32,396 nucleotides of DNA from positions 1 to 32,396 of the forward strand of contig NZ_JACJQJ010000090.1 of NCBI RefSeq assembly GCF_014696615.1, written 5' to 3'. This DNA is from Nostoc linckia FACHB-104. GTDB lineage: Bacteria; Cyanobacteriota; Cyanobacteriia; Cyanobacteriales; Nostocaceae. The position numbers and the translations under genes were made by a program. Positions 1,058-18,900 of this stretch are shown here, piece by piece (positions within the stretch are counted from its first letter, which is position 1; each line of letters begins with the position of its first letter). The notes under the pieces were generated by a model, which saw only the letters and a program-made list of their open reading frames with translations, was not told the origin of the DNA and made no database searches.

Positions 1058-2404
1058 TTACTTGACTTTGCTCAAGCTCCGTTTATCCTCAGAGATTAAG
1101 GTATCGCTTGATAGTTGAACTTGTTCTATCGATTCCCCTAACAAGAGTTGCATTGTCTTCTTTTGTAGATGCTCAATCTCGGTTAATGAGATGTTGGAAT
1201 CAGGGTAGAGCAAGTTAAAAAACATTTGGTCTCCCAAGGTCGCAACTCCGATAAAGCGACCCTTTGCAACATGAATAGCTCCAGATGGGCCATATATAGC
1301 TGCAAGTTGGAGATGTCCATACTGTGTAGGAATATGCAATTTTCCGAGATTACTAACAAGAACGTCATACCTATACAGTTCTTGGAATATCTCTTTAATC
1401 GTATCAATACTGGGATTGCTAGTAATAAACGCTTGAGCTTCGGGAAGATGGGCAAAAATCTGGTCGGGTGACATCTTCTGATTGAGCTGCGCCTTGATGA
1501 CATGAGCTAAGTCCCAAAGCGATAAATTCGGGGTAATGGTATGAGCCGAAATATTTGATGTGAAGTAGTAGCCAAAGTCCTCTTGAATGGGAGGAGTGAG
1601 GAATTGACGAATATTAATCGCTGTCAAACAATTCAGGGTGACAGATTGTTGTTGCTCAAGCCTCTGAACTTCTACGCCATTTTGAGAGTAGCTGGATTGC
1701 GCGATCGCTAACAAGAAAGCTGCACAAATAGCCGCATGAACGCTAGTTTGGGCTTGCTGACAACGGCGAATCACGGTAGCAGTCTCTTCGGGTGACAGCG
1801 ACCAGGTTAAGAGACGAAAGTGAAGACTTTTTGCTGGCGGTATAGTCTGGCTAGGATTTACCAACTCTAATTGTGAGTCTTTGGTTGGAGGTTGAATTTT
1901 GTGAGCAATCGGCGTTAGATATTCATAGGCAGGACGTTCGGGTAAAATCTGTTGCTGACTACCTGGTATCCCAATCACTTGCAGTATATCCCGCAGCAAG
2001 TAAACTACTGACATACCATCAGCGATCGCATGGTGACAGGTTATTATCAGTTCTGAGCAATCTGCTGCGTGAACCAATACGATCCGAATTAGTGGGGCTT
2101 GATTCCAGTTAAATGGATGGGCAAGCTCTTGTTCCACTTCCTGTTGCCACTGCTGTTCACTTTGTCGTTGCACCACTCGTAAGGGAATAGTAGCTGAATC
2201 TTTAGTAAACCAAGGGTTTCCCAAGGAATCAAGAACGATTCGTACCCCCAGTAAGGGATGTCGTTGTTGTACCCAAGCTAGTGCCTGCTGTAATGAGTCA
2301 ACCTGAAGTTCCCCAATTACCTTTGCAGCTACTGTGAAATGTAGCGGTATCGCCTGGTCATGTAACCAGAATATACGTTCTTCAATACCAAGTTGTCGAA
2401 GCAT
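1058..2404 (-). CDS. condensation-domain acyltransferase-like protein
   Basis: A 448-residue stand-alone condensation-type protein (chloramphenicol acetyltransferase-like fold), as in NRPS condensation domains and PapA/alcohol acyltransferases. The diagnostic HHxxxDG motif is HHAIADG at residues 124-130; its second His is the expected general base. A later EDFGYYF segment resembles the conserved DFG-type motif of the second lobe. Size matches a single free-standing domain, and no carrier-protein or adenylation domain is present nearby. The start has a good ribosome site (AAGAGG) about 6 nt upstream. The family transfers an acyl group to an amine or hydroxyl acceptor; the substrate cannot be told. 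It is the last gene of the minus-strand series, separated from the upstream dehydrogenase by the remains of a quinone oxidoreductase gene. Confidence 0.8.
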   Translation of the reverse strand: MLRQLGIEERIFWLHDQAIPLHFTVAAKVIGELQVDSLQQALAWVQQRHPLLGVRIVLDSLGNPWFTKDSATIPLRVVQRQSEQQWQQEVEQELAHPFNWNQAPLIRIVLVHAADCSELIITCHHAIADGMSVVYLLRDILQVIGIPGSQQQILPERPAYEYLTPIAHKIQPPTKDSQLELVNPSQTIPPAKSLHFRLLTWSLSPEETATVIRRCQQAQTSVHAAICAAFLLAIAQSSYSQNGVEVQRLEQQQSVTLNCLTAINIRQFLTPPIQEDFGYYFTSNISAHTITPNLSLWDLAHVIKAQLNQKMSPDQIFAHLPEAQAFITSNPSIDTIKEIFQELYRYDVLVSNLGKLHIPTQYGHLQLAAIYGPSGAIHVAKGRFIGVATLGDQMFFNLLYPDSNISLTEIEHLQKKTMQLLLGESIEQVQLSSDTLISEDKRSLSKVK

Positions 2405-2433
2405 AAAAAACCTCTTGGAAGAATTTATCTGAG

Positions 2434-2651
2434 TTATAAATTGATCGCAATTTTGCTAACATCTGTCCCCGCTTCCACAATCCCACCTAGATCATTTCCT
2501 AGCACAGTAGCGAGGACTGATTTGGCATGGGGCGTTTTACCTGTGTGGATCAAAGCGAGTGGGTTTACGGTTGGGGAATTTCAGCACTACGAAATGTCGC
2601 AGTTTGAAAATCATTTACAATCAGTACGTGCATAGTTGATATTGGCTCCAT
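2434..2651 (-). pseudogene. decayed quinone oxidoreductase gene (internal deletion)
   Basis: Only the two ends of a zeta-crystallin-type oxidoreductase gene remain, joined by a deletion of roughly 780 bp. The left part (about 2434-2475) matches the 3' end of the intact paralog at 9407. The right part (about 2490-2651) matches its 5' end, including stretches such as CAGTTTGAAAATCAT and the region around the start codon with an AAGGAG ribosome site. The match continues across the intergenic bases into the 3' end of the next dehydrogenase gene, exactly as at 10360-10520. This copy and the one at 9407 therefore derive from one duplicated oxidoreductase-dehydrogenase pair. Confidence 0.8.
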
Positions 2652-2661
2652 ATTCCACTCC

Positions 2662-3492
2662 TTATCTGTAATCGGTAGACTCAGCCAGAGTTCGCCATTT
2701 TTGCGTCTCTTGCTCAACGTAGGCGTTCTTCTGGGCTATTGCTTGAAGCGTGTCTGTACCTAGAGGTAAGCGTAGGGGCGGTTCTGGGGTGTTGACAATC
2801 TCAACAATGACTTGGGCGAGTTGGATCGGATCTCCTGGTTGCTGATAGTTCCTTTCAACTGCCATGTCGCGGGTTTTACCTACAGTTTCAGCATAATCAG
2901 GGATTTGTACTCTACTCTGACGCAGTGAACTACTATCAAGAAAATTGGTACGGAAAAATCCTGGCTCAACCACCGTAACGTGAATGCCCAACGGAGCTAG
3001 CTCGTAATGTAGGGCTTCGGTAATCCCTTCGACGGCAAACTTGGTTGAGCCATAAACCCCCCATCCTGGGTAGGAGCGATAGCCACCAATAGACGATAAA
3101 TTAATGATGTGTCCAGAGCGATTTTGACGCATACTGGGCAGCACAGCACGGGTTACATTTAGTAGCCCGAAGACATTGGTGCGATAAACACTCTCAACTT
3201 CTTCGCCACTGCACTCTTCGACTGCTCCGAGCAAACCGAATCCAGCATTGTTAACCAATACATCGATTTGTCCAAATTTTTCTAGACTAGCGGCGATCGC
3301 TGCTTTTACCTGAGTCTCATCAGTGACATCCATGCTCAGTACTAATATGTCTTTATTGGTTGCAAACTGTTGCAAATCAGCTTGATTGCGGGCGGTGGCA
3401 ATTAATCTATTACCTGCTGCCAAAACTGCTTTCGCAATCTCGGCACCAAAGCCCCGTGAAGCACCAGTAATCAGCCATGTTCTCTGAGTCAT
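2662..3492 (-). CDS. short-chain dehydrogenase/reductase (copy 1)
   Basis: A 276-residue classical SDR. The nucleotide site TGASRGFG (residues 9-16) and NNAG (81-84) form the Rossmann fold. The catalytic set is Ser133/134 and Tyr147-x3-Lys151 (YGSTK). It should reduce or oxidise a carbonyl/alcohol with NAD(P)H; the substrate is unknown. The arginine-rich region after the first strand (TARNQ) suggests NADP preference. The start is supported by AGGAGA 6 nt upstream. About 90 nt further upstream lies promoter copy A (3592-3620), shared with two other genes of the cluster. Its 3' end and the following intergenic bases are duplicated as a fragment at 10428-10525. It is homologous to, but clearly different from, the SDR at 6150. 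Confidence 0.9.
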   Translation of the reverse strand: MTQRTWLITGASRGFGAEIAKAVLAAGNRLIATARNQADLQQFATNKDILVLSMDVTDETQVKAAIAASLEKFGQIDVLVNNAGFGLLGAVEECSGEEVESVYRTNVFGLLNVTRAVLPSMRQNRSGHIINLSSIGGYRSYPGWGVYGSTKFAVEGITEALHYELAPLGIHVTVVEPGFFRTNFLDSSSLRQSRVQIPDYAETVGKTRDMAVERNYQQPGDPIQLAQVIVEIVNTPEPPLRLPLGTDTLQAIAQKNAYVEQETQKWRTLAESTDYR

Positions 3493-3591
3493 GATTTATC
3501 TCCTGAAAATTATTCGGGTTAGTAGCAAAGCTTCGATATGCAATATCTCATATTCATGCAATTGATTTGCTATTGGTGTTTGCATGAATTC

Positions 3592-3620
3592 AATATAGGA
3601 AATTGACTCGAACTTGTCGT
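3592..3620 (-). promoter_or_regulatory. shared promoter, copy A
   Basis: On the minus strand: -35 ACGACA (3615-3620), a 17-bp spacer, -10 TATATT (3592-3597). The 14-mer TGAGTGGACGACAA covering the -35 is identical in copies A, B (7788) and C (12236), and the predicted start region ATTCATGCAAACAC is nearly identical. It drives the dehydrogenase starting at 3492, with a leader of about 90 nt. Confidence 0.65.
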
Positions 3621-3688
3621 CCACTCAGGGTTGACAGTTTTACACAACAGTATGATTGATGAATTAGTCAATCTCAACATGGTAGGGT

Positions 3689-3710
3689 GATTCCAACTTA
3701 AGTTGGAATC
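3689..3710. promoter_or_regulatory. 22-bp perfect palindrome, operator copy A
   Basis: ATTCCAACTTAAGTTGGAAT (3690-3709), extended by one matched base each side, is a perfect palindrome. It begins exactly 70 bp upstream of the -35 of promoter A, the same distance as in copies B and C. No T-run follows in either direction, so it is unlikely to be a terminator even though it lies 43 bp past the preceding stop codon. Probable binding site for a dimeric regulator. Confidence 0.65.
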
Positions 3711-3752
3711 TAAATTCAACTGAAAAAACAACTTAGTTACACAACAGGTGGT

Positions 3753-4658
3753 TTAAGCCTGCTGCAAATATTTCTCGAACCATCTCAAGGCAGTTATACT
3801 TGCAATCTCAAAGCCCTCTCCCTGGAAAGCATCAAAGTGTCCGCCTTTCAAGATTGTGAGGGACTTCGGCTCCATCGCCCGCGCATAGACAGCAGCAGCT
3901 AAGTCAGCAGGTGCAAGAAAGTCCTTCTCGCCGATAATCAAGCATAGCGGGGTGGGAAAAATTGCCTCAATGTGAGGAATCGGTTCGTAATATAGACAGT
4001 GTTCAATCGATTCCAAAGTGAGCCGATTTTCCCATGTTCCTTCACTGGGATTCTTAGCTGATTCAACCCAAGTGAAAGCGTCTGGTGTCGGTAACAAGCT
4101 GGGTTGGCCAGGTGGAGCAACTAACGGGAAGTAGTTCACTTCTTTGGTTTGATACCGTTTTATCCGGTCTTGTGCAAGTAGTTTTATGAGTTCTTCGAGT
4201 TCAAGTGGAGAACTCAGGCGGCGAGAGTTGAGAAATCCACTCACTGTAGGCATCTGTGCCACAACTGCTTTGACGCGCCGATCAAATGCGGCCAGATGCA
4301 GCGCGTGACCGCCGCTATAGGAGAAACCCCAAACACCTATGCGCTCAGGATCAACTTCTTTTTGTAGTTGAGTCCAAGTGATAGCATTGCGGTAGTCTTC
4401 ATACTGCTCGGTAGGGAAGATTTGCCCACGAGGTTCTCCCTGACTAGCACCAAGGTAGCGATAATCGAATAACGTAACGACGAACCCAGCTTGAGCGAAG
4501 AACTCAGCGAACTGAGGTAGTCCCATCTCTTTGGTCAAGCCAATTCCATGAGCCATGACGATTGCGGGAAAGCGATTGCCAGATGCTATTTTATCCGGAG
4601 TATAAAAGGTGACAGAACACTTTAGTCCCTTACTTTCAAAGCTGGTTGTTCTTTGCAT
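3753..4658 (-). CDS. alpha/beta hydrolase, acetyl-xylan-esterase/Xaa-Pro peptidase-like
   Basis: An alpha/beta-hydrolase-fold protein of 301 residues from the ATG at 4658. The frame stays open to a TTG at 4712, but family alignments normally begin near the [17 protein letters not shown] region, so the ATG is preferred; neither start has a clear ribosome site. The nucleophile elbow is GFSYSGG (catalytic Ser), the acid lies in GEKDFLAP, and the His in KGGHFDAF, so the triad is complete. A MAHGIG oxyanion-region motif is present. Such proteins hydrolyse esters or peptides of small substrates; the exact reaction is unknown. An unrelated hydrolase fragment ends right at its 5' end (4709), which suggests a rearrangement junction at the gene front. 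Confidence 0.8.
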
Positions 4659-4708
4659 AGCTGTTGTGGGAGTTAGTAAATTTGTTAGAGATTGCTTTTT
4701 AGGTCGTT

Positions 4709-4847
4709 TCAAATCTGTGCCATACCGATAAATTTCTCTACGATCTGTGCCAGGCGATCGAACGTGTAGTCAAATCCATGCACAGTTGGCATAGAACTGT
4801 TACCGTAGCCCGGATAATCAGGTGCAACCAGATGAAAGCGGTACGTA
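4709..4847 (-). pseudogene. alpha/beta hydrolase fragment
   Basis: An open stretch of 45 codons with no start, bounded upstream by a stop, reads FHLVAPDYPGYGNSS and then [13 protein letters not shown] before a stop. This is the strand after the oxyanion loop and the following helix of an epoxide-hydrolase/haloalkane-dehalogenase-like enzyme (usual form: HLIAPDYPGFGNSD). The catalytic Ser, acid and His regions are absent. It is not a piece of the gene at 3753, which has a different sequence there, nor of the one at 10573. It is a fossil of a further hydrolase once present in the cluster. Confidence 0.7.
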
Positions 4848-4854
4848 AATTACG

Positions 4855-6045
4855 TTAAGAATAAGGTGTAATAGTTGGCATCGTTCCAGTCAGCGCCCAA
4901 TTGCCGACTTCCCGAATTTTGTAGTCCACCGGATCGTGGAGTGTTGCTGTGCGGAGGTTTCGCCAGTAGCGATCAAAGTCATAACTGCGTGTAGTAGCGC
5001 TTGCACCCATTACATCAAACATCTGCGTTGTGATCGCTAAACCAATTTTCGTGACGAATGCTTTGGCGGTGTAAACGGCGATTGCGGCTTCTCCTCTTTG
5101 TTGGGCGGTTAAATTAATACCCTGTTCGTTGGCAGTTTGCAGTACTTGAGCCGCGCGATCGCTAAGTAATGTTGCCGCTTCTAACTCCATCCAAAATTCA
5201 CCGTAGTGATGCAGAATATAAGGGTCTTGAATCGCTTGTTCTATCCCAGACGTAATCCAGGGGCGAGTTCTGGTTGTGGTGTAGTCTCTTGCAGCTGCAA
5301 ACGCGCCTTGGATAATACCCAGATAGATGTTGACTTGATTGAGTTGCTTGAAGACATTCAGCAGACTGGCGATCGGGCTGTCATTTGCATAAATAGAAGT
5401 CAGAATTTCATCTGGTCTCACCAGCACCTGCTCAAACGTAACGCTACCTGAGTCTGTTTGGCGTTGTCCCATGTTGTCCCAATCGCCATTAAAGTGAATA
5501 CCGGGGCGATCGCTCGGAACAACTGCAATGATGGGCTGTTGAGAATCAGCGTTTAAGGCACTGACAATCATCCTGTCTGATAGGCTTGCTCCTGTGGCAA
5601 ATCGCTTGATACCATTCAACTGCCAGCCCCAGCTTGTGGAAGTTGCCACTAATCTTGGATCTAGTACATTGACTGCATTTGCCCAAAACCAGTTGTGCTT
5701 TACTGTCTCTAAGTAGAATTGTTCTACCTGTGTTGGATTGCTGGTTGAGAGGGAGCTGACAATTGAGGTGTGATTGCCAAACAGTTGACCAATCGAGCCA
5801 TCAGCTTTGGAGAACTCCCGGATCAACTGAAAGATTTTAACCCAAGAGGTTTCTCCTAACCCCCCATAAATCTTAGGAATCACCAGATTGAGTAGACAAC
5901 TTTGGCGCAACTGCTCAATCTCATGGATTGGGCGGCTACCACCATTGCGATCGCGCTCTGGGGCTGTTTTGGCAAATTCCTGAGCAAGTTGATGACCGAT
6001 ATCGAGAACATTAAGGGATTGTGCTTTTTCAAGACATTGGATCAT
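4855..6045 (-). CDS. DszC/SfnB-like flavin monooxygenase (acyl-CoA dehydrogenase fold)
   Basis: A 396-residue member of the acyl-CoA dehydrogenase superfamily. The sequence around GSIGQLFGNHTSIVSSLS and the WDNMGQRQTDSGSV segment match the SfnB/DszC branch (reduced-flavin-dependent monooxygenases acting on organosulfur compounds) rather than true acyl-CoA dehydrogenases: the usual catalytic Glu context is not apparent, while WDNMGQRQT-DSG is characteristic. Such enzymes need FMNH2 from a partner reductase; none is obvious in the window, though the flavin reductase at 7937 or the dehydrogenases could be redox partners. The start has GAAGGA upstream. It follows the dehydrogenase at 6150 with a short gap that holds a dsbA scrap. 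Substrate not predictable. Confidence 0.75.
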   Translation of the reverse strand: MIQCLEKAQSLNVLDIGHQLAQEFAKTAPERDRNGGSRPIHEIEQLRQSCLLNLVIPKIYGGLGETSWVKIFQLIREFSKADGSIGQLFGNHTSIVSSLSTSNPTQVEQFYLETVKHNWFWANAVNVLDPRLVATSTSWGWQLNGIKRFATGASLSDRMIVSALNADSQQPIIAVVPSDRPGIHFNGDWDNMGQRQTDSGSVTFEQVLVRPDEILTSIYANDSPIASLLNVFKQLNQVNIYLGIIQGAFAAARDYTTTRTRPWITSGIEQAIQDPYILHHYGEFWMELEAATLLSDRAAQVLQTANEQGINLTAQQRGEAAIAVYTAKAFVTKIGLAITTQMFDVMGASATTRSYDFDRYWRNLRTATLHDPVDYKIREVGNWALTGTMPTITPYS

Positions 6046-6097
6046 AGTGAGTTATCCTTCAGCAATTTAGTTCTTGCTGCTTCATGTGTGAGGTAAA

Positions 6098-6142
6098 TTC
6101 CAGTGATCGCTAATCGCTATACAAAGCTGGGGTAGCAGTTGC
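6098..6142 (-). pseudogene. dsbA-like gene scrap 1
   Basis: About 45 bp, including ACAAAGCTGGGGTAGC and CCAGTGATCGCT, match the region 7122-7166 inside the DsbA-like gene with a small deletion between the two matched blocks. It lies between the dehydrogenase stop and the monooxygenase start. It is best explained as the last trace of a duplicated dsbA gene. Confidence 0.65.
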
Positions 6143-6149
6143 TTTGTTT

Positions 6150-7025
6150 CTAAACTTGCTGGGTGAGGCTAGGAAAATTAAATCCCACGCCCGCATTGGC
6201 GGTAGACTCTTGCCAGATATGCTCAAAGCGCTGATATTCTTCGATATCTGAGGAAAGTTTTTGAACAATCGTTGGTAGTGCATTCGGGCCGATCGCTAAG
6301 TGAAGCGGCGGGTCAGGTAATTCCACCACTTTCAACATTGCTTGAACACCCGTTGGTACATGACCATAAGGATACTCTTCCCTAAGTTTGACCACTTCCG
6401 CCCAGAAAGAATTGTACTCTGGCATTTGCTTTGCCGTAATCAAAGAGCGACCTGAAAAGTCGGTCTCAAAGCCTCCTGGTTCAACAATTGTCACCTTAAT
6501 GCCAAAAGGTTTAAGTTCTTGTGCGAGGGTCTCTGAAAGTCCTTCGACTGCAAATTTAGAAGCATGATATAGCCCCATCGTAGGAAATGTTCTCCGTCCG
6601 CCTATTGAAGAAATATTCAAGATATGACCAACGCCTTGTTTCTTGAATTTCGGAATGACGGCACGAGTCACATTTAGCAGCCCAAAGAAGTTGGTTTCAA
6701 ATTGGTCACGGATTTGCTGGTTGCTTACTTCCTCAATTGCACCCATCAATCCATAGCCCGCGTTGTTCACCAGCACATCAATTTTGGTGAATGCTGCTAA
6801 ACCACTCTGCACCGCCGTTTGAATGGTTGCTGGATCGGTAACATCTAAACGAACTGCCTTTCCCGTCTGTGGATATTGCTGCTCTAAATCTTGAATTTTG
6901 CTGACATCACGAGCCGTTGCAATGACACGATCGCCTTGAGCCAAAGCAGCTTCAGCTAAAACCCGACCAAAGCCCGTAGAACTGCCTGTAATCAGCCACA
7001 CGCGAGATGATGTTTGATTCGTCAT
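6150..7025 (-). CDS. short-chain dehydrogenase/reductase (copy 2)
   Basis: A 291-residue classical SDR with TGSSTGFG (residues 13-20), NNAG (87-90), Ser140 and Tyr153-x3-Lys157 (YHASK). The TARD sequence after the second strand favours NADP(H). Annotation pipelines usually call such proteins oxidoreductase or SDR; the carbonyl substrate is unknown. The ribosome site is AGGAA upstream of ATG. The DsbA-like gene ends 48 bp upstream, so both probably share the transcript from promoter B. It is a distant paralog of the SDR at 2662, not a recent duplicate. Confidence 0.9.
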   Translation of the reverse strand: MTNQTSSRVWLITGSSTGFGRVLAEAALAQGDRVIATARDVSKIQDLEQQYPQTGKAVRLDVTDPATIQTAVQSGLAAFTKIDVLVNNAGYGLMGAIEEVSNQQIRDQFETNFFGLLNVTRAVIPKFKKQGVGHILNISSIGGRRTFPTMGLYHASKFAVEGLSETLAQELKPFGIKVTIVEPGGFETDFSGRSLITAKQMPEYNSFWAEVVKLREEYPYGHVPTGVQAMLKVVELPDPPLHLAIGPNALPTIVQKLSSDIEEYQRFEHIWQESTANAGVGFNFPSLTQQV

Positions 7026-7073
7026 GATATATTCCTGAATAAACTAACACTGACTTGATTAGTCTTTGACTGC

Positions 7074-7631
7074 TCAATTTGCTGTATTGACAATGGCTGC
7101 TATTAACTGCTCCATATTCCAGCGATCGCTATACCAAATCCCATTAATAAACAAAGCTGGGGTAGCTGTTACTCCGCTATGGATGCCACTTTCAATATCT
7201 TGATTGATGCGCTCAAGATGCAGATGCTTACACATATCTTGGAGAAATTGGGAGATATCGAGTCCTAGATCGTTGGCATACTCTACTAAATAACCATCTG
7301 CTAACTGTTGTTGATGAATAAACAAAATGTCATGTATTTGCCAAAACTGACCTTGAACAGCAGCTGCTTCAGCCGCTTCAGCCGCACGTAGAGCTTGAGA
7401 ATGAATTTTTATCTGAGGAAAATGACGGAAAATAAAGCACAAATAATCCTCCCCTAACGAAATACTCAGTTGTCGCCCAATGACTTTCAACAACCGATAA
7501 ACATCCGCACTCTCTTGACATTGGTAATCTCCATACATCACCAGTACCACAGAGGCACTTAACAGCCCTTGTTTACGATCCTGGGTTGAAGGTGGGACAA
7601 ATAATAAACGGTGTTGACGGTCATTGTTCAC
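7074..7631 (-). CDS. DsbA-fold thioredoxin-like protein with single active-site Cys
   Basis: A 185-residue DsbA/FrnE-type thioredoxin-fold protein. YGDYQCQES (residues 33-41) occupies the place of the usual YxDFxCPxC, so the first cysteine (Cys38) is kept but the second is Ser41. The cis-proline loop is TATP (155-158) and is followed by FINGIWY, as in family members. There is no signal peptide, so it should act in the cytoplasm. With one cysteine it cannot be a dithiol oxidase. It may act by a monothiol mechanism, as a glutathione-dependent reductase or isomerase, or as a peroxidase-like enzyme. AGAGG lies 15 nt before the ATG. Promoter copy B is about 130 bp upstream. Confidence 0.8.
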   Translation of the reverse strand: MNNDRQHRLLFVPPSTQDRKQGLLSASVVLVMYGDYQCQESADVYRLLKVIGRQLSISLGEDYLCFIFRHFPQIKIHSQALRAAEAAEAAAVQGQFWQIHDILFIHQQQLADGYLVEYANDLGLDISQFLQDMCKHLHLERINQDIESGIHSGVTATPALFINGIWYSDRWNMEQLIAAIVNTAN

Positions 7632-7764
7632 TGGAACCTCTTAAGGGAAGTATGTTTACCGCAAGCATCACTTGCGGGGATTACGCCTACATCCCTCTCT
7701 GTGCTATGTGTATCAGCAAACTTGAATCTGGCAACTGGATTGCTATCTGTGTTTGCATGAATCT

Positions 7765-7793
7765 AATATATGCAATTGATTTTGGTTTGTCGT
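7765..7793 (-). promoter_or_regulatory. shared promoter, copy B
   Basis: Minus-strand -35 ACGACA (7788-7793), 17-bp spacer, -10 TATATT (7765-7770). Nearly identical to copy C over about 170 bp and aligned without gaps to the more divergent copy A over the promoter-operator span. It serves the DsbA-like gene starting at 7631. Confidence 0.65.
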
Positions 7794-7862
7794 CCACTCA
7801 CAGTTGATACTTTTATTTAATCGAGTGGGCGATCGCTTAATCCATCTGACAATGGAAGAGTA

Positions 7863-7882
7863 ACTCAAACTTTAGTTGGAAT
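7863..7882. promoter_or_regulatory. operator palindrome, copy B
   Basis: ACTCAAACTTTAGTTGGAAT is the same dyad as at 3690 and 12311, with one arm slightly degenerate. It begins 70 bp from the -35 of promoter B and lies just beyond the 3' end of the flavin reductase gene. Confidence 0.55.
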
Positions 7883-7936
7883 TCAATAAAATGACTCAAT
7901 TCCCCTTCCAAATATAAGATGTCTGCATTTGCTGCT

Positions 7937-9331
7937 TCACATCTTTGAAAACAGCAAATTTAACCCTTCGGTCATTGTGGGATGAGTCAACACACCATCG
8001 CGCAAAACGGTGTAAGGCATTTGAGCTTGGATCACCATCTGCACAGTTGAAATCACTTCACCTGCTTCATGACACAAGAGTGAAGCACCGAGAATATGCC
8101 CTGTCTCAGTATCCACGATCGCCTTCAACAAACCATCAGTTTTACCTAGTGTTCTCGCTCTGGGAATGGCTGAGGCATCCAGTTTTGCTACTCGAATGGC
8201 ATACCCTTGTTGCCGTGCTTCGGTTTCAGTCAACCCCAAATGCGCCAGTTCTGGATCAATGAACAGACAGGAGGGAATTGGGCGATCGCTAGTGTTGCGG
8301 TTGCCGCCATCAATCAAATTTGCTTTGATAATCCGATAATCGTCCAGCGACACATGGGTATATTGCGGGCCGCCATTGATGTCGCCTAACGCCCAAATAC
8401 CTGGTACATTCGTTTCTAGGCGATCGTTAACTACAATAAATCCACGAGCATCAGTTGCCACACCAGCAGCAGCTAAATTTAAGCTATCGGTAGTTGGCAC
8501 ACGACCAACAGCAATGAGCAAATGTGAACCTTGAAGCTCTATTTGCTGATTAGCAACTTGGATTTGCAGTTTGATTGCATTGCCAGCACGATCAGCCTTT
8601 AACACTTTCGCATTCAGCAGAAATTCAATATCCTCTCGTTCCAGCAATGTCTGCACCGCTATTGCAATATCTGGATCTTGCTGTGAAAGAATTTGCTCAC
8701 TTTGTCCAATCACCGTAATGCGAGAACCAAAGCGCCGGAACATTTGAGCAAACTCCAATCCAATATAGCCGCTACCGAGAATAAGTAAATGTTCAGGCAA
8801 CTGCTCTAGCTCCATAATCGACTCGCTAGTCAAAAACCCAGCTTCTTTAAGTCCGGGTATGGATGGAATCAAAGGTCGTGTGCCTGTGTTAATAAACAAT
8901 CGTTCTGCGGTAATTAACCGAGTATTGCCTTCATCTGTCGCCACTTCAATCGTTTGAGGAGCAACAAAGCGTCCCGTACCAACGATCAGTTCGTGACCAA
9001 GAGCTATTTTTAGATTGTGCAAGTTCATTTCACGCATCGATTGCACAACTATTCGTTTGCGGCGAATCACCTCTGCAAAATCAAGGGTGGAAGCATGGAC
9101 TTTAATACCATAAGCAGCACTGTTACGGACTATATTCGCAACATTGGCACTTGCCACCATAGTTTTGGTAGGAATGCAAGCAACATTAATGCAAGTGCCA
9201 CCTATCATGTTTAGGCTACGTTCAACCAAAGCAGTTTTACGTCCAGTTGCCACTAGCGCAGGTGCGAGAGTTTTACCCGCTTTGCCACCGCCAATAATAA
9301 TATCGTCGTAATGTTCCATATTCATGCACAT
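7937..9331 (-). CDS. RclA/MerA-like flavin disulfide reductase
   Basis: A pyridine-nucleotide-disulfide oxidoreductase of 464 residues. The FAD site is IIIGGGKAGKTLA near the N-terminus. The redox-active disulfide is Cys47-x4-Cys52 in GGTCINVACIPTKT. A second dinucleotide site is ILGSGYIGLEF, and the ALGDI motif lies in the FAD C-region. The dimerisation domain ends with His450-Pro-Thr and Glu455, the catalytic base pair. Mercuric reductases carry an extra C-terminal Cys pair, absent here, so RclA-type (Cu/reactive chlorine) or other NAD(P)H-dependent reductase activity is more likely. It is not a lipoamide dehydrogenase of a 2-oxoacid complex by context. Several ATGs lie close together (9331, 9325, 9319); the last fits the family start MEHYDDIIIGGG. 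Confidence 0.85.
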   Translation of the reverse strand: MCMNMEHYDDIIIGGGKAGKTLAPALVATGRKTALVERSLNMIGGTCINVACIPTKTMVASANVANIVRNSAAYGIKVHASTLDFAEVIRRKRIVVQSMREMNLHNLKIALGHELIVGTGRFVAPQTIEVATDEGNTRLITAERLFINTGTRPLIPSIPGLKEAGFLTSESIMELEQLPEHLLILGSGYIGLEFAQMFRRFGSRITVIGQSEQILSQQDPDIAIAVQTLLEREDIEFLLNAKVLKADRAGNAIKLQIQVANQQIELQGSHLLIAVGRVPTTDSLNLAAAGVATDARGFIVVNDRLETNVPGIWALGDINGGPQYTHVSLDDYRIIKANLIDGGNRNTSDRPIPSCLFIDPELAHLGLTETEARQQGYAIRVAKLDASAIPRARTLGKTDGLLKAIVDTETGHILGASLLCHEAGEVISTVQMVIQAQMPYTVLRDGVLTHPTMTEGLNLLFSKM

Positions 9332-9406
9332 TTCTTTTGTTGAATGTTCATGCCGATCGCAATCCTATTTAAGTTGTGAAAAATATTGGTTTTGGTAGTT
9401 CACTGT

Positions 9407-10405
9407 TCACAAATCGATGACAATTTTGCTGACAGCCGTACCTTGTTCCACCGCTTCATGGGCAGACAGTGCAGTATCTAAAGTAAAATGGCGGGGGTCA
9501 ACCACTGGACGCAGTTGTCCAGCTTCTGCCAATTGGGTGGCTTGGCGGAGAATCTCACCATGATGAACGCGACCTTCGCCAGTCAATAGAGGCAGAAGTA
9601 CGAACACACCAGAATATGTTGCAGCTTTGCGTGAGAGGGTCAGTAGAGAATGAGTCCCCCAGCCATAGTTACTAACGACGTGACCGTAATTGCGTACTGC
9701 CTTGAACGCATCATCCAGGGTAGAACTCCCAACTGTGTCGTAGACTATATCAAACCCTTGACCATCCGTGAATGTCTGTACGATTTGCTCAATTGATGTG
9801 CTGTTATAGTCGATCGCTACTGCACCGAGTTGTCGCACCATGTCATGCTTTGGAACTGAAGCAGTTGCAAACACTTTAGCACCACGAGCTTTGGCAATCT
9901 GCACAGCGATATGACCGACTCCGCCAGAACCGCCGAGTACAAGAACTCTATGTCCTGCACTGACATTCGCTCGATCAACCAGTCCTTCCCAGGCGGTCAA
10001 AAATACCAGGGGTAAAGCTGCTGCTTCTCGCATACTGAGGTTAATTGGTTTTTTCGCCAACAAATCGGCATCGACAGCCGCAAACTCAGCTAGTGAACCT
10101 TGCAGTCCACCAACTCCACCTGTCAACCCGTAGACTTGATCACCAACTTTGAATGCGGTAACGTCTTGTCCAACTGCTTCAACGACCCCAGCAAGATCGC
10201 ATCCCAGCACAGCAGGAAATACAGATTGAGTATGAGGTGCTTTACCTGTGCGGATTTTGCTATCGAGTGGATTCACACCACTTGCCTTAATTTGTACTAA
10301 AACTTGGTTAGCACTAGGTTCTGGTCGCGGAATTTCGGCAGCACGAAATGTTGCAGTTTGAAAATCATCTACAATTAGTGCGTGCATCGTTGATAATGAC
10401 TTCAT
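9407..10405 (-). CDS. zeta-crystallin-type quinone oxidoreductase
   Basis: A 332-residue medium-chain reductase/dehydrogenase. The N-terminal GroES-like part includes VKIKASGVNPLDSKIR-type sequence (residues 37-52). The Rossmann motif VLGGSGGVGHIAVQIA lies in the middle. The zinc-ligand cysteines of alcohol dehydrogenases are absent, as expected for the quinone oxidoreductase branch, which reduces quinones or enones with NADPH. The start has AAGGAA 7 nt upstream; a second ATG (MHALIVDD) is also possible. It is the intact copy of the gene decayed at 2434-2651. Downstream sits the flavin reductase with a 75-bp gap, and upstream a fragment of the dehydrogenase that was its duplicated partner. 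Confidence 0.9.
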   Translation of the reverse strand: MKSLSTMHALIVDDFQTATFRAAEIPRPEPSANQVLVQIKASGVNPLDSKIRTGKAPHTQSVFPAVLGCDLAGVVEAVGQDVTAFKVGDQVYGLTGGVGGLQGSLAEFAAVDADLLAKKPINLSMREAAALPLVFLTAWEGLVDRANVSAGHRVLVLGGSGGVGHIAVQIAKARGAKVFATASVPKHDMVRQLGAVAIDYNSTSIEQIVQTFTDGQGFDIVYDTVGSSTLDDAFKAVRNYGHVVSNYGWGTHSLLTLSRKAATYSGVFVLLPLLTGEGRVHHGEILRQATQLAEAGQLRPVVDPRHFTLDTALSAHEAVEQGTAVSKIVIDL

Positions 10406-10427
10406 CTTTCAATTCCTTATCTGTAGT

Positions 10428-10525
10428 TAGTGGACTCAGCCAGAATTCGCCAATTGCCTAAAGTGTATCTGTGCCTAGAGATAAGCGTAGGGGTGGTTTG
10501 TCTGTGTTGACCTTGGGCGCTTATA
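10428..10525 (-). pseudogene. decayed SDR fragment (3' end)
   Basis: GACTCAGCCAGAATTCGCCA and AGATAAGCGTAGGGGTGG match the 3' end of the dehydrogenase gene at 2662-2815, with the piece between them deleted and nearly all of the upstream coding part lost. Continuous similarity runs from here into the intact quinone oxidoreductase start. With the reverse situation at 2434-3492, this shows that a two-gene unit was duplicated and each copy lost a different gene. Confidence 0.8.
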
Positions 10526-10572
10526 TCCCCCAGTAATCAACCGGAGGCCTGACGGATCACAACTCGTAATGC

Positions 10573-11552
<980 letters not shown>

Positions 11553-11560
11553 TCACAAAC

Positions 11561-12055
11561 TTATTGCCTATGTGAATGCGGCTCATCTTTACTTATGGAA
11601 AGGGGTTCTCCGACGATCCAGGTGTCATACTGATATGCTAGATCTGCCCAACCTTCGGGCGGCGTTTGACCTATTTGGGGGAAGAATTCGTCCATATCGC
11701 CAGGTACAAAGGTGAAAAGCAATCGAGCTACTCCCGGCCCCAGGTTCACCCATCCATGTATGCTGTTACGGGGTACAACAACCGACGTTCCTGGCCCAGC
11801 CTCAAACTCTTCGCCTGCACAGTGAAAGCGAAATCTGCCTTCAAGTACTTCAAATATCTCTTCCCTATCTTTGTGATAGTGGAGTGGCGGGCCTGAGAAC
11901 GGTGGGACACGCGCTTCGATGATTGAGAAAGCTCCAGCGACATCTCTGCTATGCACACGGATAGCCATTTGCTCACCAGGCATAGTATCGAACCAATTGA
12001 GGTCTTCGCCCTGGCTGACAATTGCAACTTTGTTTTTACTGAATTCGGTACTCAT
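11561..12055 (-). CDS. cupin-domain protein
   Basis: A 164-residue single-cupin protein from the ATG at 12055, which has an excellent ribosome site AAGAGGTAAT; an upstream in-frame ATG at 12091 lacks one. Cupin motif 1 is PPLHYHKDREEIFEVLEG (two His, Glu) and motif 2 is PGTSVVVPRNSIHGWVN (last His). These supply the usual 3-His/1-Glu metal site. Proteins of this size include quercetinase-like dioxygenases, isomerases and non-enzymatic binding proteins; activity cannot be fixed. It is the first structural gene after the response regulator and is preceded by promoter copy C and a scrap of dsbA. Confidence 0.85.
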   Translation of the reverse strand: MSTEFSKNKVAIVSQGEDLNWFDTMPGEQMAIRVHSRDVAGAFSIIEARVPPFSGPPLHYHKDREEIFEVLEGRFRFHCAGEEFEAGPGTSVVVPRNSIHGWVNLGPGVARLLFTFVPGDMDEFFPQIGQTPPEGWADLAYQYDTWIVGEPLSISKDEPHSHRQ

Positions 12056-12100
12056 GGTATTACCTCTTATAATTATGCAATTGAGGATCAAAGCTCTTGA

Positions 12101-12135
12101 TTACTTGCAAAGATAATGGCTACCATCAACTCTGT
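12101..12135 (-). pseudogene. dsbA-like gene scrap 2
   Basis: On the minus strand the codons read E-L-M-V-A-I-I-F-A-S-stop, close to the C-terminus of the DsbA-like protein (E-Q-L-I-A-A-I-V-N-T-A-N). Immediately upstream the sequence TTGAATCTGGCAACTG matches the leader region of the dsbA gene (7722-7737). This looks like a dsbA copy reduced by one large deletion to promoter plus last codons. The promoter now precedes the cupin. Confidence 0.45.
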
Positions 12136-12212
12136 TTCCGATTCTGAGTTGAAGATGAGACCAATAATCTTGAATCTGGCAACTGAATTACTATCTGTGT
12201 TTGTATGAATTT

Positions 12213-12241
12213 AATATATGCAATTGACTTTGGTTTGTCGT
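12213..12241 (-). promoter_or_regulatory. shared promoter, copy C
   Basis: Minus-strand -35 ACGACA (12236-12241), 17-bp spacer, -10 TATATT (12213-12218), TGAGTGGACGACAA over the -35. It lies between the response regulator and the cupin and should transcribe the cupin. Confidence 0.65.
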
Positions 12242-12310
12242 CCACTCACAGTTGGCACTTTTATTTAGTCGAATGGAGAATTGCTTAACCCATCTGATAA
12301 TGGAAGACTA

Positions 12311-12330
12311 ACTCCAACTAAAGTTGGAAT
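12311..12330. promoter_or_regulatory. operator palindrome, copy C
   Basis: ACTCCAACTAAAGTTGGAAT, the same dyad as at 3690 and 7863, begins 70 bp from the -35 of promoter C and 23 bp past the response regulator stop codon. Confidence 0.6.
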
Positions 12331-12353: not shown

Positions 12354-12986
12354 CTACAAACTGACAATCCCGCGTTTTACCGCAATAATCACTGCTTGAG
12401 TGCGATCGCTTACTCCCAATTTACTAAGAATGCGATTAACGTGAGATTTGACTGTGCTTTCGCCAATAGTTAAAGCAGTTGCAATATCTGAATTACTCAT
12501 TCCTTGCGCCATTAAACCCAGTACCTCTAGCTCTCGTTCGCTCAGTTCTGGGTTACTCATGCGCTGCACTAGCTTTGCCCCCACTTCCGGTGGAATGTAC
12601 TGCTGACCGCGATTAACCATGCGAATGGCATTAAGCAGTTCGCTGGGTTTTGCATCCTTGAGCAGATAGCCTTTCGCTCCCGCCTGCAATCCGCGATAAA
12701 TATCTTCATCGCCATCATAGGTGGTTAGCACAATAATTTGGGCAGGTTTAAATTTGGCACAAATAGCAGTAATGGCTGCTACTCCTCCCATTTGCGGCAT
12801 TCGCAAATCCATCAAAGTCACATCCGGTTGATGTTCACCAAAACAAGCGATCGCCGCTTCTCCATCTTCTGCTTGAGCAATTACTGTCATTTCGGGATCG
12901 CGATTAATAATGGTTGCCAATCCTTGTCTGACAATGGCGTGATCGTCAACAATTAAAACGCGAATTGTAGTGGATTGGCTAAGCAT
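12354..12986 (-). CDS. NarL/FixJ-family response regulator
   Basis: A 210-residue two-component response regulator. In the receiver domain (about 8-122), Asp14-Asp15 bind metal, Asp60 (VTLMDLRMP) is the phospho-acceptor, Thr88 and Lys110 (YLLKDA) complete the site. In the LuxR-type helix-turn-helix (about 147-207), LSERELEVLGLMAQGMSN and TVKSHVNRILSKLGV are typical. It starts 5 nt after the kinase stop, and its ribosome site (GAGGG) lies inside the last kinase codons, so it is translationally coupled to its cognate histidine kinase. NarL-type regulators bind inverted heptamers as dimers. The 20-bp palindromes upstream of three neighbouring genes, the nearest just 23 bp past this gene, are candidate targets. 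Confidence 0.93.
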   Translation of the reverse strand: MLSQSTTIRVLIVDDHAIVRQGLATIINRDPEMTVIAQAEDGEAAIACFGEHQPDVTLMDLRMPQMGGVAAITAICAKFKPAQIIVLTTYDGDEDIYRGLQAGAKGYLLKDAKPSELLNAIRMVNRGQQYIPPEVGAKLVQRMSNPELSERELEVLGLMAQGMSNSDIATALTIGESTVKSHVNRILSKLGVSDRTQAVIIAVKRGIVSL

Positions 12987-12991
12987 GATTT

Positions 12992-15900
12992 TTACCCTCG
13001 ATTGACAATGACAATAATTTCTGTTCCTTGCCCTAGTTGGCTGGCAATTCTCAATTGCGCTCCAATTCGCTCTGCCCGTTCGCTCATTCCCAACAATCCA
13101 AATCCGCCAACCGAGGGAATGCTACCGACACCAAAGCCTTGCCCATTGTCTTTGATGCTCAATGTAGTTTGTGCATCTCCATAGACTAACTCCAGGCGAA
13201 TTTCGTCAGCCATTGCATATTTAATCGCATTTGTCAATGCTTCCTGCCCAATTCGCAGTAAGTTATTCTCCACTTCGGCGGGTAAAGGATAGGCTGTACC
13301 CTGAATTTCGTAAATCAAAGCAGTATCATCGGTAGCAGATCTCATTTGCGTCACAAGGCGATGGAGGGCGCTAGATAAATCGCCTTCCTCTAATAACTGA
13401 GGGCGGAGTGCTGTGACTGAGCGACGAGCTTCAGCTAGCCCGATTCGTGCCAATTCATCGATCATCTCCAGATGGGCCTGTGTTGCTTCTAAATCATCTA
13501 CTAGCACTTGGGCTGCTGCACCAACTTGAACCAAAATACCTGTAAAGGCTTGAGCCAGCGTATCATGAATTTCCCGCGCCATACGGTTGCGTTCTTCTAC
13601 AATTGAGGCTTCTTCGGCACGTTTGCGTTCACGCAGTGCAGCGTTTCGCTGTTCGCTGATGTCTGTGATTAACCCATAGTATCCTTTCACTTGACCATTG
13701 GCATCGAAATCAGGAATGAGCGAATTACTAATATATTTCTTGCCCAATACACAGGGAATTTCTGCCTCATAGGTTGTGATTTGCCCTGCCAGTGCTTGAT
13801 TAATGTACGGTTGCATAACTTGATAAGCCGCATCATCCAAGGTTTCGCGAATATGCTTGCCCAAAATCTCATCTTGACTACGAGCAAACCATTCCTCATA
13901 AGTGCGGTTGGCAAACCGATAATGCTGCTTGGCATCTACATAGGTGATACAAACAGGTAGAGCGTCTGTAATCACTCGTAATTCCTGTTCTCGTAAGCGA
14001 AGCTCATCGTAAACATCGCGCAATTCGGCTTCGCTTTTTTGTAAAGCTGCTGTTCGTTGGGCAACCTGTTGCTCTAAGGTGCAATTGTAATCGGCTAACA
14101 ATTTCTCGGCTTGTTTGCGCTCAGTAATATCTTGAAAGGCTGCGATCGCATAAGTCAAATTGCCCTGTTCGTCAAAGACTGGAGTTCCCCATGCCTCAAT
14201 GGGGATTTTGGCGTTTTTGTGGTAAATTTCTATATCATCAACTCTAGTATGTTCGCCCCTTAACGCTCGGAAAAGTGGCATTCTCTCAGTTGGATATTTT
14301 TGAGCAGTTCCAGCTTGATAAGCTTGATAAACCTCTGTAAGTTGATCGAGTGTCACAGAAGGATCAATATCTTTAGCCAATAGCTGAGTTGCTCGCCCAT
14401 TGAAGTAATAAGGGTGTCCCCATTTATCTACAACTGCAACACAGACTGGAATTGCTTCCAGAAATTGAGTCATCTTACTTTCGCTCTCACGCACCTTGGA
14501 GTAGAGCCTAGCATTTTCGATGGCAATGGCTGCTTGAGTTGATAATAGATGTAAAAGTTGCGCTCGCTCTGGTGTAAATGCTCCAGTTGCTAATTGATTT
14601 TCTAAATATAATACACCAACAAGTTTATTTTGATTTAATAGCGGTAAACAAAGAAGTGATTGAGTTTGGTGCTGCTGAATATATGGTTCGTTGGTAAAAT
14701 TACCTTCACGAGTTGCATCATTTAAAATGATAGATTCATGAGTCCGAATCACATACTGGATAATTGATTCCGGCAGATGATTTTTAGTTGGGAGCGATTG
14801 TAGCACTCGCGTAGTACAAACACTCTCAGCATCAGCTAGTTCATAAGCAGCTTCAATTAGCCATTGTCCGGAGTTTTCCAAAATCAAGAACCCAGTTTGT
14901 GCGCCAGCATTCTCAATTAAGATTTTCATCAAGGAAGTGAGCAACTGATCTAGTTCAATTTCTCGAGAAATTGCTTGTGACGCTTTCATCACTGTTGCCA
15001 AATCGAGCGCGACACCTGAGCGATTAGAGGTAGTTCCTGAAGTTGTGCGGATTGTTGTCCCAGCCCTAGCTGACGGCTGAGAAAATAACTGTGGATACCG
15101 AGTTTCTAAATCTTGAACTTTTGTTGTGGCTCCCCAGCGTTCATAGCAGTAGTGAGCTTCTTTTATATAGGTTTGGGCGATTTTCTCCCGACCTCGCGCT
15201 AAATAATTTTTAGCAGCCAATTCGTATGCTAAAGCTTCTTCTTGGATATATCCATTTTCCCTAGCTCCCTGAATTGCTAGTTCATAAAACTCTTCTGCCT
15301 CAAACAATTGCCCCAAAACTCTCGCGCGCTCTGCGGCGATTAAATGATATTTATGTAGAAAATTCATTGGTGCATAATTTGACCATTGCTGCATTTTCTC
15401 CTGACTCAGGGAAACGTATTTGAGGATTTCTTCTTGCTGTTGAGAGTTGCTTGCGGAGTATATTGCAAGTTTTGCTAAAGCACTATAGAAGTGGTATACA
15501 GGAATCAGCGGTGTGGCAATGACGTTGATCGCATAACGTTCTGTGATGGCTGCATTCTTACATGCCTGAGCATACTCAGAAAATAAATAGCACAGGAAAA
15601 GTTTGTTGAAATAGACATGAAAGATTTTGGTTCCATCGTTTGCAATTTCATCACTTAGCAGGCTATTCTCCTCATTGTAGGCTTCTCCCATGAGGCAGGA
15701 GGGATTGAGGGAGGGTTTGAGCAAATTTAAGACAGATTGCTGAAATATTTGATTCCAGGTGAGTGATGTTGTCTGTTTAATTTGACGGATGGCTTCACAA
15801 TACGTTGCCATCTCACGTTCAACCTCTACAAGTTCCTTGCCAACAATAAACAATTGCAGGCAGTAAGTAAAAGCACCATAGGCAGCAAACTCTAAATCTC

Positions 15901-18900
15901 CAGTTTCCAGCCCACTTTGATAGGCTTCTAGGAATGGCTGTGATGTCTCCCGAACATGCTCTTTCCAGTGAATGATGAAGTTAGCAACCGTGAACGATGT
16001 TCTAGCTTTCAGTGAATGGATGTTCAAATGATGTAACAGTCTTAATGCAAGCTGCCCAAACTTGTAGCCAGACTCAATGTTTCCGACTATCCCACAAAGA
16101 ATCAACCCAAAGTTAGCATACGCAAAGGGAGACAGAAAGGCATTGCCATACTCAATTGACAAGTTGACCTGTTTCGATACCAGTAGGGGCATCAGATCGG
16201 GAACAGCGATATAAGCAGCAATTGTCACACTGGATAAGATTTGCATTGCCGCCAACTTGTCTGGTTCGGTCATTGGGGGCAAATGAATTAAGTCTTCGAT
16301 CGCTTTCTCGCCAAAAAATGATGCGATGCTTCCTGTGGGAGCGGTGCAAAGCACCATCGCGTCTAGTTCCATCTGTATATCTGACTGAGTTGGGTTTTCG
16401 GGAAAACTGATCCCCAGTAACTGCAATACTCGCAAAGCTGTATCGATGGCTAGCAATGGTTGGTTCTGTGCGATATAGGTTTGAATTTTGACTTCGTAAA
16501 CTTTTACGGTATCGAGAACCGTTTGAGCTTCTTGTAGAACGATCGTTGCCCAGTATTCTACTTGCTGAAAGTCGCCACACAAATATGCAACTTCTGTGCT
16601 TTCTGAATACAAACTTAATGTTAGGTCATAGTTTTTTTGCCAGCTAGGCTCAGCTAGCCATGCTCTACCTGTGGCTAAATAGGTTTGAGCCATACTATAG
16701 GCGATCGCTGCCTTTGCTTTCTGAGCTGCAATTAAATTTAATTTGGCGATTTTATGTCGTTCTCGCGAATCGCTCAAAAGTTCAATCCCATGATTGAGAT
16801 GATCGACAATTTCAAATATCTGCTCTGATAGTCGCTCAGTTAAGGTGTTTTCCAGAAGGTTGCGACCAATTTGTAAATGCACCACCTGTTTATGCGACTC
16901 ATCAATTAAAGCGTATGCGGCTTGCTGCACGCGATCGTGCAAAAACTTATATTCTTGAATTAACAGGTTTTCGTCTAATTCAGATAAAGGTTGAATTAAT
17001 CCTGCTTGAATAGCTGCTAATAAATCTCGAAAAACTTCTTGAGCGGTTTTCTCACAAACGATCGCCAACGTATCTAAATCAAATTCGGCACCGACACAAG
17101 CCGCTAATTGGAGAATGTATCTTGTATCATCTGGTAGTTTTTTTAACTTGTGCAGCAACAACTCTACAACATTATCGGTGATATTTTGAGCTTGAATCTC
17201 AGCAATGTTCCACTGCCAACATAGGTTTTTTGCATTAAAGGTTAGCAGATTTTCGCTATACAGCATTCGCAAAAATTCACCGACAAAAAAAGGATTGCCT
17301 TCGGTTTTACGCAGCACTAACTCAGCTAAGGGACGTATAGTCTCTGTATTGTGATGCAGCGTTTCAGCAATCAACTGACTCAATGGCTCCAGTGTTAAGG
17401 GTGCTAGAATAATCTCCCCAAGCACGACTCCTTGTTTTCGTACTCGCTCCTGCAATAATCTGAGTGGATGCGTTGGACTGACTTCGTTATCCCGATAGGC
17501 TCCAATCAAAAATAGATGTTGAGTTTGCTCGTCAAGGAGCATTAATTCAATCAGCTTCAGAGTCGCAGAATCTATCCACTGCAAATCATCAAGGAAGATC
17601 ACAAGCGGGTGTGACTGGGAACAAAACACCCGTACAAACTGTTGAAAAACTCGATTAAAACGATTTTGGGCTTCCGCAGATCCAACTTCTGCTACAGGGG
17701 CCTGCTTGCCAATAATCAGTTCAACTTCCGGGATTACATCAATAATGATTTGTCCATTGCTTCCTAAAGCTTTTAGAAGTCGCGATCGCCACTGTTGCAA
17801 CTGCTCATCCGGTTCGCCAAGTATTTGCTGCACCAATTTCTGCAAAGCATCTGCGATCGCGCTGTAAGGAATATTGCGCCCAAATTGATCGAATTTACCC
17901 CAAATAAAATAGCCGCGCTTGGCGGTGATTGGTTTATAAATTTCCTGCACTAATGCTGATTTCCCAATTCCCGCATAACCAGAAACCAACATCATTTCAA
18001 CCTTGAATGTTGGTTTGCTAGTTTGTGCCTGTTCTGAAGTCTTTTCTACATAGTCTCGTGAAGCAGCAACGCGCTCAAAAGCTGCTAGTAACATTGCAAC
18101 TTCCCGATCCCTGCCATAAAGTTTTTGGGGAATTTGGAACTGATCTCTAATGTCCAAAAGACCCAGTTGAATGCTATGAATTTGTCCGATTTTTTTTAAT
18201 TGGTCAGCACAAATTTCTAAATCCGCTTTGATTCCCCAAGCACTCTGATAGCGTTCCTCTGCATTCTTCGCCATCAGTTTGAGAACAATATCTGAAACTG
18301 CTTTGGGAATCGTTGCATTCAATTCATACGGTGGAGGTGGCTGTTTAGCAATATGACAGTGGACTAACTCCAGGATGTCTGTTGTGGGAAAAGGCAGATA
18401 TCCGGTTAGCAATTCATAGAATGTCACACCCAGCGAGTAAAAATCAGTGCGATAATCAAGCAAACGGTTCATTCTCCCTGTTTGCTCTGGCGACAGGTAG
18501 GCTAGGGTTCCTTCTAAAACATGAGGGCTTTTGAAAGTCGGATTCGTGCGGTTAAATTGGGTGGCAATCCCGAAGTCAATAATTTTGACAACACCAGTAT
18601 CCGGATTGAGAACAATATTTCCAGGATTGATATCCTTATGAATAATATTGGCTGCATGAATTTTGCCCAGAATATCTGTGAGGTTGATGGCAAGAGGTAA
18701 AAAAGCAGATAAGGGCATGGGGCAGAAATCTGGACGCTTATGCATCCATTTCGCTAGTGACTCTCCACCAAAATCTTCTAAAAGAATAATGAGTGTGCGT
18801 TGATATTCCTGCTGGCTATATGCCTTGATCGCACCTTCTAAGTTAAGCGATCGCGTAATTTCATATTCCTGCCTGTAGCGGGTGAGTTCCGATGCCGTAG

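Follow-up and report, generated by a model that had tools for sequence, protein, structure and literature searches.

The 32,396-nucleotide (nt) stretch analysed here (the window; Nostoc linckia FACHB-104, contig NZ_JACJQJ010000090.1) holds three promoter modules on its minus strand. We found that in each module the interval between an upstream dyad and the -35 box is filled by imperfect copies of that dyad at a 24-bp period (units U2 to U5), the last of which abuts the -35 box. The nearest module adjoins the gene of a NarL/LuxR-type response regulator, the predicted reader of the arrays. The repeats, their register, their conservation, their linkage to the regulator and the co-variation of recognition helix and operator are all seen in the sequence, and on our best reading the array would be a long, rigid variant of NarL/DevR-type promoters.

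The module, about 165 nt long, occurs in three ungapped copies at 3545-3709 (A), 7718-7882 (B) and 12166-12330 (C); copies A and C are 68% and 88% identical, respectively, to the middle copy B over 165 nt. On alignment of the minus strand, each copy has the dyad, the promoter ACGACA-17-TATATT and a conserved start region, as an initial annotation of this DNA had claimed, and the block it had called identical in all copies, TGAGTGGACGACAA, is indeed invariant across the three. The -35 box ACGACA has 4 of 6 consensus letters, and both promoter hexamers together have 9 of 12. The parts of the modules and the regulator gene are as follows.

12313..12328, minus strand: copy C unit U2, TCCAACTTTAGTTGGA, a perfect 7-2-7 dyad and the strongest site
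12289..12304, minus strand: copy C unit U3, TCCATTATCAGATGGG, 24 bp downstream of U2
12265..12280, minus strand: copy C unit U4, weak in this copy
12241..12256, minus strand: copy C unit U5, GCCAACTGTGAGTGGA, abutting the -35 box, with its centre at about -42 from the predicted start
12213..12241, minus strand: copy C promoter, ACGACA-17-TATATT
7865..7880, minus strand: copy B unit U2, TCCAACTAAAGTTTGA
7793..7856, minus strand: copy B units U3, U4 (weak) and U5, in 24-bp register
7765..7793, minus strand: copy B promoter, ACGACA-17-TATATT
3692..3707, minus strand: copy A unit U2, TCCAACTTAAGTTGGA
3620..3683, minus strand: copy A units U3, U4 and U5, in 24-bp register
3592..3620, minus strand: copy A promoter, ACGACA-17-TATATT
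~12206, 7758 and 3585, minus strand: predicted transcript starts of copies C, B and A
12354..12986, minus strand: NarL/LuxR-type response regulator (Response_reg + GerE), predicted reader of the arrays

A chance origin of the dyad and the -35 block is excluded by sequence counts. TGAGTGGACGACAA-N7-TCAATT (at most three mismatches) has 3 matches in the window compared with a mean of 0.00 in 100 shuffles, and the dyad pattern (17 bases, at most two mismatches) is matched 6 times over both strands (3 sites), compared with 0.34 expected. The claim of exactly 70 bp from dyad to -35 box stands for the distance from the end of the 16-bp dyad core to the G of GACGAC, which is 70 bp in all three copies; measured to ACGACA, it comes to 69 to 71, depending on the dyad end chosen. 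The dyad of copy B has one mismatch. In copy C, 23 nt lie between the stop codon of the regulator gene (12354-12986) and the 20-bp dyad, and by coordinates the preceding gene ends 23, 54 and 43 nt from the array in the window.

The initial annotation had posited one distant dyad whose helical phase is under selection, with an interval that simply drifts. Autocorrelation shows a 24-bp ladder instead, so that the single-dyad phase model was replaced: the interval holds further copies of the dyad site. For 21 modules dereplicated from 68, the top lags of 79 were 24, 72 and 48; for 18 modules dereplicated from 127 (U2 to U5 only), the top four of 74 lags were 72, 73, 48 and 24, and lag 73 fits a half-base offset of U5. 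Modules more than 80% alike were dropped for both sets, and the larger set also lost modules with more than one gap (137 to 127). In the 18 modules, mean identity at lags 24, 48 and 72 was 0.474; column permutations gave 0.259 ± 0.027, and 0 of 2000 reached a value as high. The three window copies alone had top lags of 72, 73, 24 and 48.

In the consensus of the 21 dereplicated modules, the 24-bp pieces begin TCCAACTTnAGTTGGA (U2), TCCATTnTnAGATGGA (U3), TCnATCAnTCTATTGT (U4) and nTCAACTCTnAGTGGA (U5), and a weaker unit, U1, lies upstream in many relatives. The 7-2-7 arrangement is present in U2 (TCCAACT-TT-AGTTGGA, with a symmetry of 0.93 at its centre). Scored as 16-bp even-centred dyads, U2, U3, U4 and U5 reach 0.93, 0.51, 0.47 and 0.37 (median 0.25), ranking 1, 6, 10 and 20 among 73 centres. 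Since 24 bp is about 2.3 helical turns, neighbouring sites face different ways; by this arithmetic, adjacent dimers would be rotated by about 100 degrees, and the 96 bp from U1 to U5 would bring these two onto nearly the same face.

The geometry of the module is kept across genera, as judged from relatives fetched by their regulator protein and not by the module (500 encoding stretches found, 80 loci kept). In a less biased count, the -35/-10 pair was sought within 700 nt 3' of the regulator (GACGAC-like and TATATT-like hexamers were still needed, with at most one mismatch each) and the best dyad was taken anywhere in the preceding 170 nt. We found a module in 65 of the 80 loci, 61 at 70 bp and 4 at 69, with a -35/-10 spacer of 17 in 58 and 18 in 7. 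At least one module occurs somewhere in the locus for 75 of the 80.

A sequence-only model (R1) was built from 35 already detected modules; it allows gaps but leans to the common spacing. Across 100 sources, R1 found 137 modules, of which 132 are distinct; at least two loci, L165 and L169, repeat the DNA of L082 and L081, which had been retrieved twice. Leaving out modules that do not span the interval (137 to 135), spacing was 70 bp in 117, 69 in 12, 67 in 5 and 46 in 1; among 130 distinct modules, it was 70 in 112, 69 in 12, 67 in 5 and 46 in 1. Hence, although there are 1-bp shifts and a 67-bp group, the spacing in related genomes does not show the free variation that the initial annotation had named as refuting its proposal. 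The one large change of spacing, to 46 bp (L102:6342), amounts to the clean removal of exactly one 24-bp unit, which a modular array fits better than a fixed 70-bp phase. By genome, R1 found the module in 82 of 208 with stricter large-set filters, superseding an earlier BLAST survey (59 of 217).

The three copies could instead be recent duplicates of one promoter-operon cassette, with an equal spacing that is inherited and functionally uninformative. The window does hold a duplicated cassette (stubs at 10323-10511 mirror 2569-2796), and copies B and C are as alike as given above. However, the same geometry recurs in most modules from many genera, and the units change in concert with the regulator, as described below. 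MAFFT also aligned 38 copies without a gap from dyad to -35 box between heavily gapped flanks, although BLAST placed compensating gaps of net zero in many pairs. Hence, duplication explains how the copies arose within the window and no more; as an account of the spacing it is largely refuted by the conservation across genera, and we consider it very unlikely.

The regulator has a receiver and a GerE helix-turn-helix domain (PF00072, 1.5e-28; PF00196, 7.9e-20), and its matches in PDB include VraR (4e-44), DevR (2e-35, fifth best) and NarL (2e-33). Among 208 genomes of the family, 80 have both module and regulator, 2 the module only, 18 the regulator only and 108 neither, with regulator presence set at E ≤ 1e-80, a threshold of our choice (Fisher p 6e-37, not corrected for kinship). 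The module was also found in 19 of 243 sampled genomes of the order, 17 of these outside the family. In the window's own 9.39-Mb genome there are three regulators of the group (100, 81 and 69% identity; the next has 46%), all with a module immediately 3', the third being weakly matched (25.8 bits). The 6 modules that reach E < 1e-4 all sit on the contigs of these three regulators. The adjacent NarL-type regulator, named as the first candidate in the initial annotation, is thus well supported at the level of sequence by this linkage and by the co-variation described next.

The third regulator of this genome (69%; L154, contig C32, 2411-3178) has the helix ESTVKFHINK, a different dyad, CTGAACTTAAGTTCGG, and the weak module match; a separate third operator code in one genome is possible. 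In L051, the place of a module 3' of the regulator (end at 10630) is taken by another regulator gene from this group.

The recognition helix of the regulator and the letters of its operator change together. All 25 members of one regulator clade (support 100/100) carry EGTVKSH in the recognition helix, as against 0 of 56 others, which have EST (52) or ENT (4). The bootstrap of this tree had not settled, and its row L071_C32like was badly extracted and has a long branch. The helix pattern read 78 of 81 loci, and the other three, shown directly, are all EST; the pattern of another table missed 5 of 86 rows. At loci of the EGTVKSH clade (33 modules, TCTA), position 3 is T in 33 U2, 33 U3, 24 U4 and 31 U5, compared with 0/75 U2, 7/74 U3, 0/72 U4 and 0/73 U5 in the 75 other modules (gaps left out; modules of L154-L171 not included), and position 14 is A in 33/33 of U2, U4 and U5. 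Hence, a Ser-to-Gly change in the recognition helix goes with a C-to-T change at the same base of U2 to U5; if each unit is a binding site of the regulator, such a parallel change in several units is to be expected.

The pattern extends beyond the arrays next to the regulator. All 16 arrays of the clade outside 700 nt 3' of the regulator have TCTA (L153:4885 was excluded, 17 to 16, as adjoining its regulator). Five additional TCTA loci include a regulator in their stretch, and 5 of 5 fit the EGTVK pattern (L169 repeats the contig of L081); a sixth TCTA locus, L170, has no regulator in its stretch. On annotated plasmids, EGTVK occurs with TCTA (2/2) and ESTVK with TCCA (2/2). Three VKSHVTR regulators have CGACT...AGTCG arms, and VKTH regulators have ACC-type arms adjacent.

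Another protein, such as a nucleoid protein or an AraC-type regulator, might bind the array, with the neighbouring regulator merely linked to it. In Trichormus variabilis ATCC 29413 and Oscillatoria PCC 7112, the stretch does include an AraC-family gene. However, no AraC-type regulator was found among the 16 window proteins scanned, where the cupin alone has a weak AraC_binding match, and the operator letters track the NarL-type recognition helix, also at arrays distant from the regulator. We give this explanation hardly any credence, and take the NarL-type regulator as the predicted reader.

It is likely that an HstK-type kinase and the adjacent regulator cooperatively activate three redox/detox operons in a class II-type manner. 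In the mechanism that we infer, each module would be the promoter of one of three tandem operons, and its ladder would offer four sites (perhaps five in many relatives) to dimers of the adjacent regulator. A signal would act through the kinase encoded just upstream, the likely phosphate donor, to yield phosphorylated regulator. The first phosphorylated dimer would probably load on U2, the strongest site, and its neighbours would then fill the weaker U3 and U4 cooperatively, down to U5. At about -42 and touching the -35 box, U5 would place its dimer in contact with RNA polymerase as a class II activator, and the outcome would be joint induction of the three operons. Since U5 touches the -35 box with its centre about 42 bp before the predicted start, it has the usual position of a class II activator.

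Several observations weigh against this reading. As dyads the units are unequal: U2 is the sole strong even-centred one, a centre in mid-linker reaches 0.54, and U4 is weak in copies B and C. The 0 of 400 result of the symmetry test owes largely to U2. Among 80 odd centres, U5 gives the best dyad (0.62, as 7-1-7), in a test made after looking. Hence, the evidence for U3 to U5 lies more in the repeat than in their own symmetry. In relatives, a module is missing from the 700 nt 3' of the regulator at 15 of the 80 loci (at one of them, L084, because the contig runs out) and from the entire locus at 5. The five 67-bp modules belong to the most divergent paralogue group, whose operator differs and which shows no clear ladder. 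Two of the 82 module genomes (G173 and G124) have no regulator at the threshold; either their arrays are orphans or their regulator may have diverged. In the TCTA clade, the change is not matched in the right half of U3 (3/33 have A at position 14), and U1 has no such change. ACC arms also occur in L059:11502, L162:7585 and L168:6674, with other helix types at L059 and L162, so that the link of VKTH helix and ACC arm is weak. Each helix type arose about once, probably with one origin per lineage; hence, the independent events are few and the rows are not independent.

An operator touching the -35 box might also serve repression. The arrays would then be repression operators, with dimers that sit over the -35 box and keep RNA polymerase off until a signal releases them. 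U5 does abut the -35 box, NarL-family regulators can also repress, and the hexamers match enough of the consensus for some basal activity to be possible. However, a ladder reaching more than 80 bp upstream would exceed a blocker's needs, and NarL at ogt and DevR, sited at this position, activate in the published passages compared (PMC7419079, PMC3029386). We consider repression unlikely and retain cooperative activation as the preferred reading.

The predicted kinase partner and the gene runs behind the modules, each probably an operon given gene order and gaps, are as follows.

12992..19069, minus strand: 2025-amino-acid (aa) dual Ser/Thr and histidine kinase, predicted partner of the regulator (Pkinase, AAA_16, GAF, PAS, HisKA_3, HATPase_c)
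7937..12055, minus strand: gene run behind copy C, with cupin, alpha/beta hydrolase, zinc-type alcohol dehydrogenase and pyridine nucleotide-disulphide oxidoreductase
3753..7631, minus strand: gene run behind copy B, with DsbA-like protein, short-chain dehydrogenase/reductase (SDR), acyl-CoA dehydrogenase and alpha/beta hydrolase
1058..3492, minus strand: gene run behind copy A, with SDR, then condensation/PapA-like acyltransferase

The kinase has an N-terminal Ser/Thr kinase domain, a GAF domain between and a C-terminal histidine kinase, which places it with HstK/cbSTKIII (Pkinase 31-275, GAF 1372-1517, HisKA_3 1826-1892, HATPase_c 1934-2021). Upstream of the regulator, 48 of the 80 loci have an open reading frame (ORF) of 1700 codons or more, 24 have one of 600-1699 and 8 a shorter one; in L060, of the middle size class, it encodes a dCache-HAMP-PAS histidine kinase. 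Downstream, 126 of the 137 modules have a first ORF of about 100 or more codons within 600 nt (starts set mechanically), and 84 of these 126 match the window's DsbA-like protein. Smaller first-gene clusters, named from single members, are cupin (8), isochorismatase (7), SDR (6) and GMC oxidoreductase (4). The cassette lies on plasmids typed conjugative in Trichormus variabilis ATCC 29413, Nostoc sp. UHCC 0926 and Oscillatoria PCC 7112, and on a Fischerella NIES-4106 plasmid typed non-mobilizable. The relative of the window's regulator in ATCC 29413 is AVA_RS28515, and its array (L181:11356-11499) precedes the DsbA gene AVA_RS28490.

The gene runs also contain reciprocal relics. A stub like the start of an alcohol dehydrogenase (2569-2796 region) comes after the full copy-A SDR, and an SDR-end stub (10323-10511) precedes the full alcohol dehydrogenase (start 10405). 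The SDR-dehydrogenase cassette seems to have been duplicated, with one gene lost per copy.

The transcribed start region (12135-12207, 7687-7759 and 3514-3586, minus strand) is partly conserved across relatives (GCAAAC ... GTTTGC). A structured leader RNA was rejected for now, as RNAalifold on 22 leaders gave no consensus pair, and an Rfam scan of the window found no family at gathering score. Elsewhere in the window, the match of a 301-aa ORF (27821-28726) to the alanyl-tRNA synthetase family is limited to a section of the profile (tRNA-synt_2c, 38-314 of 552), so that the ORF looks like a shortened or partial synthetase copy. The stretch at about 19.1-25.0 kb has no ORF above 170 codons; a 52-nt inverted repeat and repeated or inverted CCTGACTTTTCACGG-type blocks at 19727-20024, 20288-20457 and 24106-24143 may be remains of mobile elements.

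To our knowledge, the targets of most dual kinases in filamentous cyanobacteria are not known. With the array, one large group of them gains a predicted operator, a predicted regulon (mostly led by the DsbA-like gene) and a testable recognition code with natural helix/operator variants. The cassette recurs in distant genera and on plasmids, three of four examined being typed conjugative. We tentatively propose a mobile signalling cassette of giant dual kinase, NarL-type regulator and redox/detox operons, whose rigid 24-bp ladder might act as one nucleoprotein unit and whose duplicates in one genome might be insulated by a concerted change of units and helix, as natural orthogonal regulator-operator pairs. 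It would offer a compact example of duplicated two-component systems that may be insulated from one another by co-evolving operator-array units. No description of this array was found among the matches listed in open-licence literature (titles and abstract starts), in searches only partly aimed at the array.

The window kinase agrees with the definition of HstK/cbSTKIII, an N-terminal Ser/Thr kinase, GAF and a C-terminal histidine kinase, as worded in the source passages (PMC2176072). It differs in adding AAA_16 and PAS and in its proposed output array, whereas those passages of PMC2176072 name no operator.

The closest parallels of the array, as far as the published passages compared go, are DevR (PMC3029386) and NarL at ogt (PMC7419079). 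DevR promoters of Mycobacterium have close-packed boxes, the proximal one overlapping the -35 box, and cooperative binding (PMC3029386); by sequence, the array likewise has at least two close-packed boxes with the proximal one at the -35 box, and it shares the centre of the palindrome (DevR TTSGGGACTWWAGTCCCSAA, PMC2275270; array ATTCCAACTTTAGTTGGAGT). The array differs from DevR/DosR in having four to five units, spaced 24 bp apart and kept almost in a single register at more than 100 promoters, in its outer operator letters and in the dual kinase next to its regulator. At Escherichia coli ogt, NarL sites lie at -44.5 and -77.5 (PMC7419079); U2 has exactly the same 7-2-7 arrangement, and in both cases one site abuts the -35 box, whereas ogt has two sites, another spacing and, in the passages compared, no ladder. 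The parallel with both systems is close, and it is the rigid 24-bp register that, by this comparison, would set the array apart.

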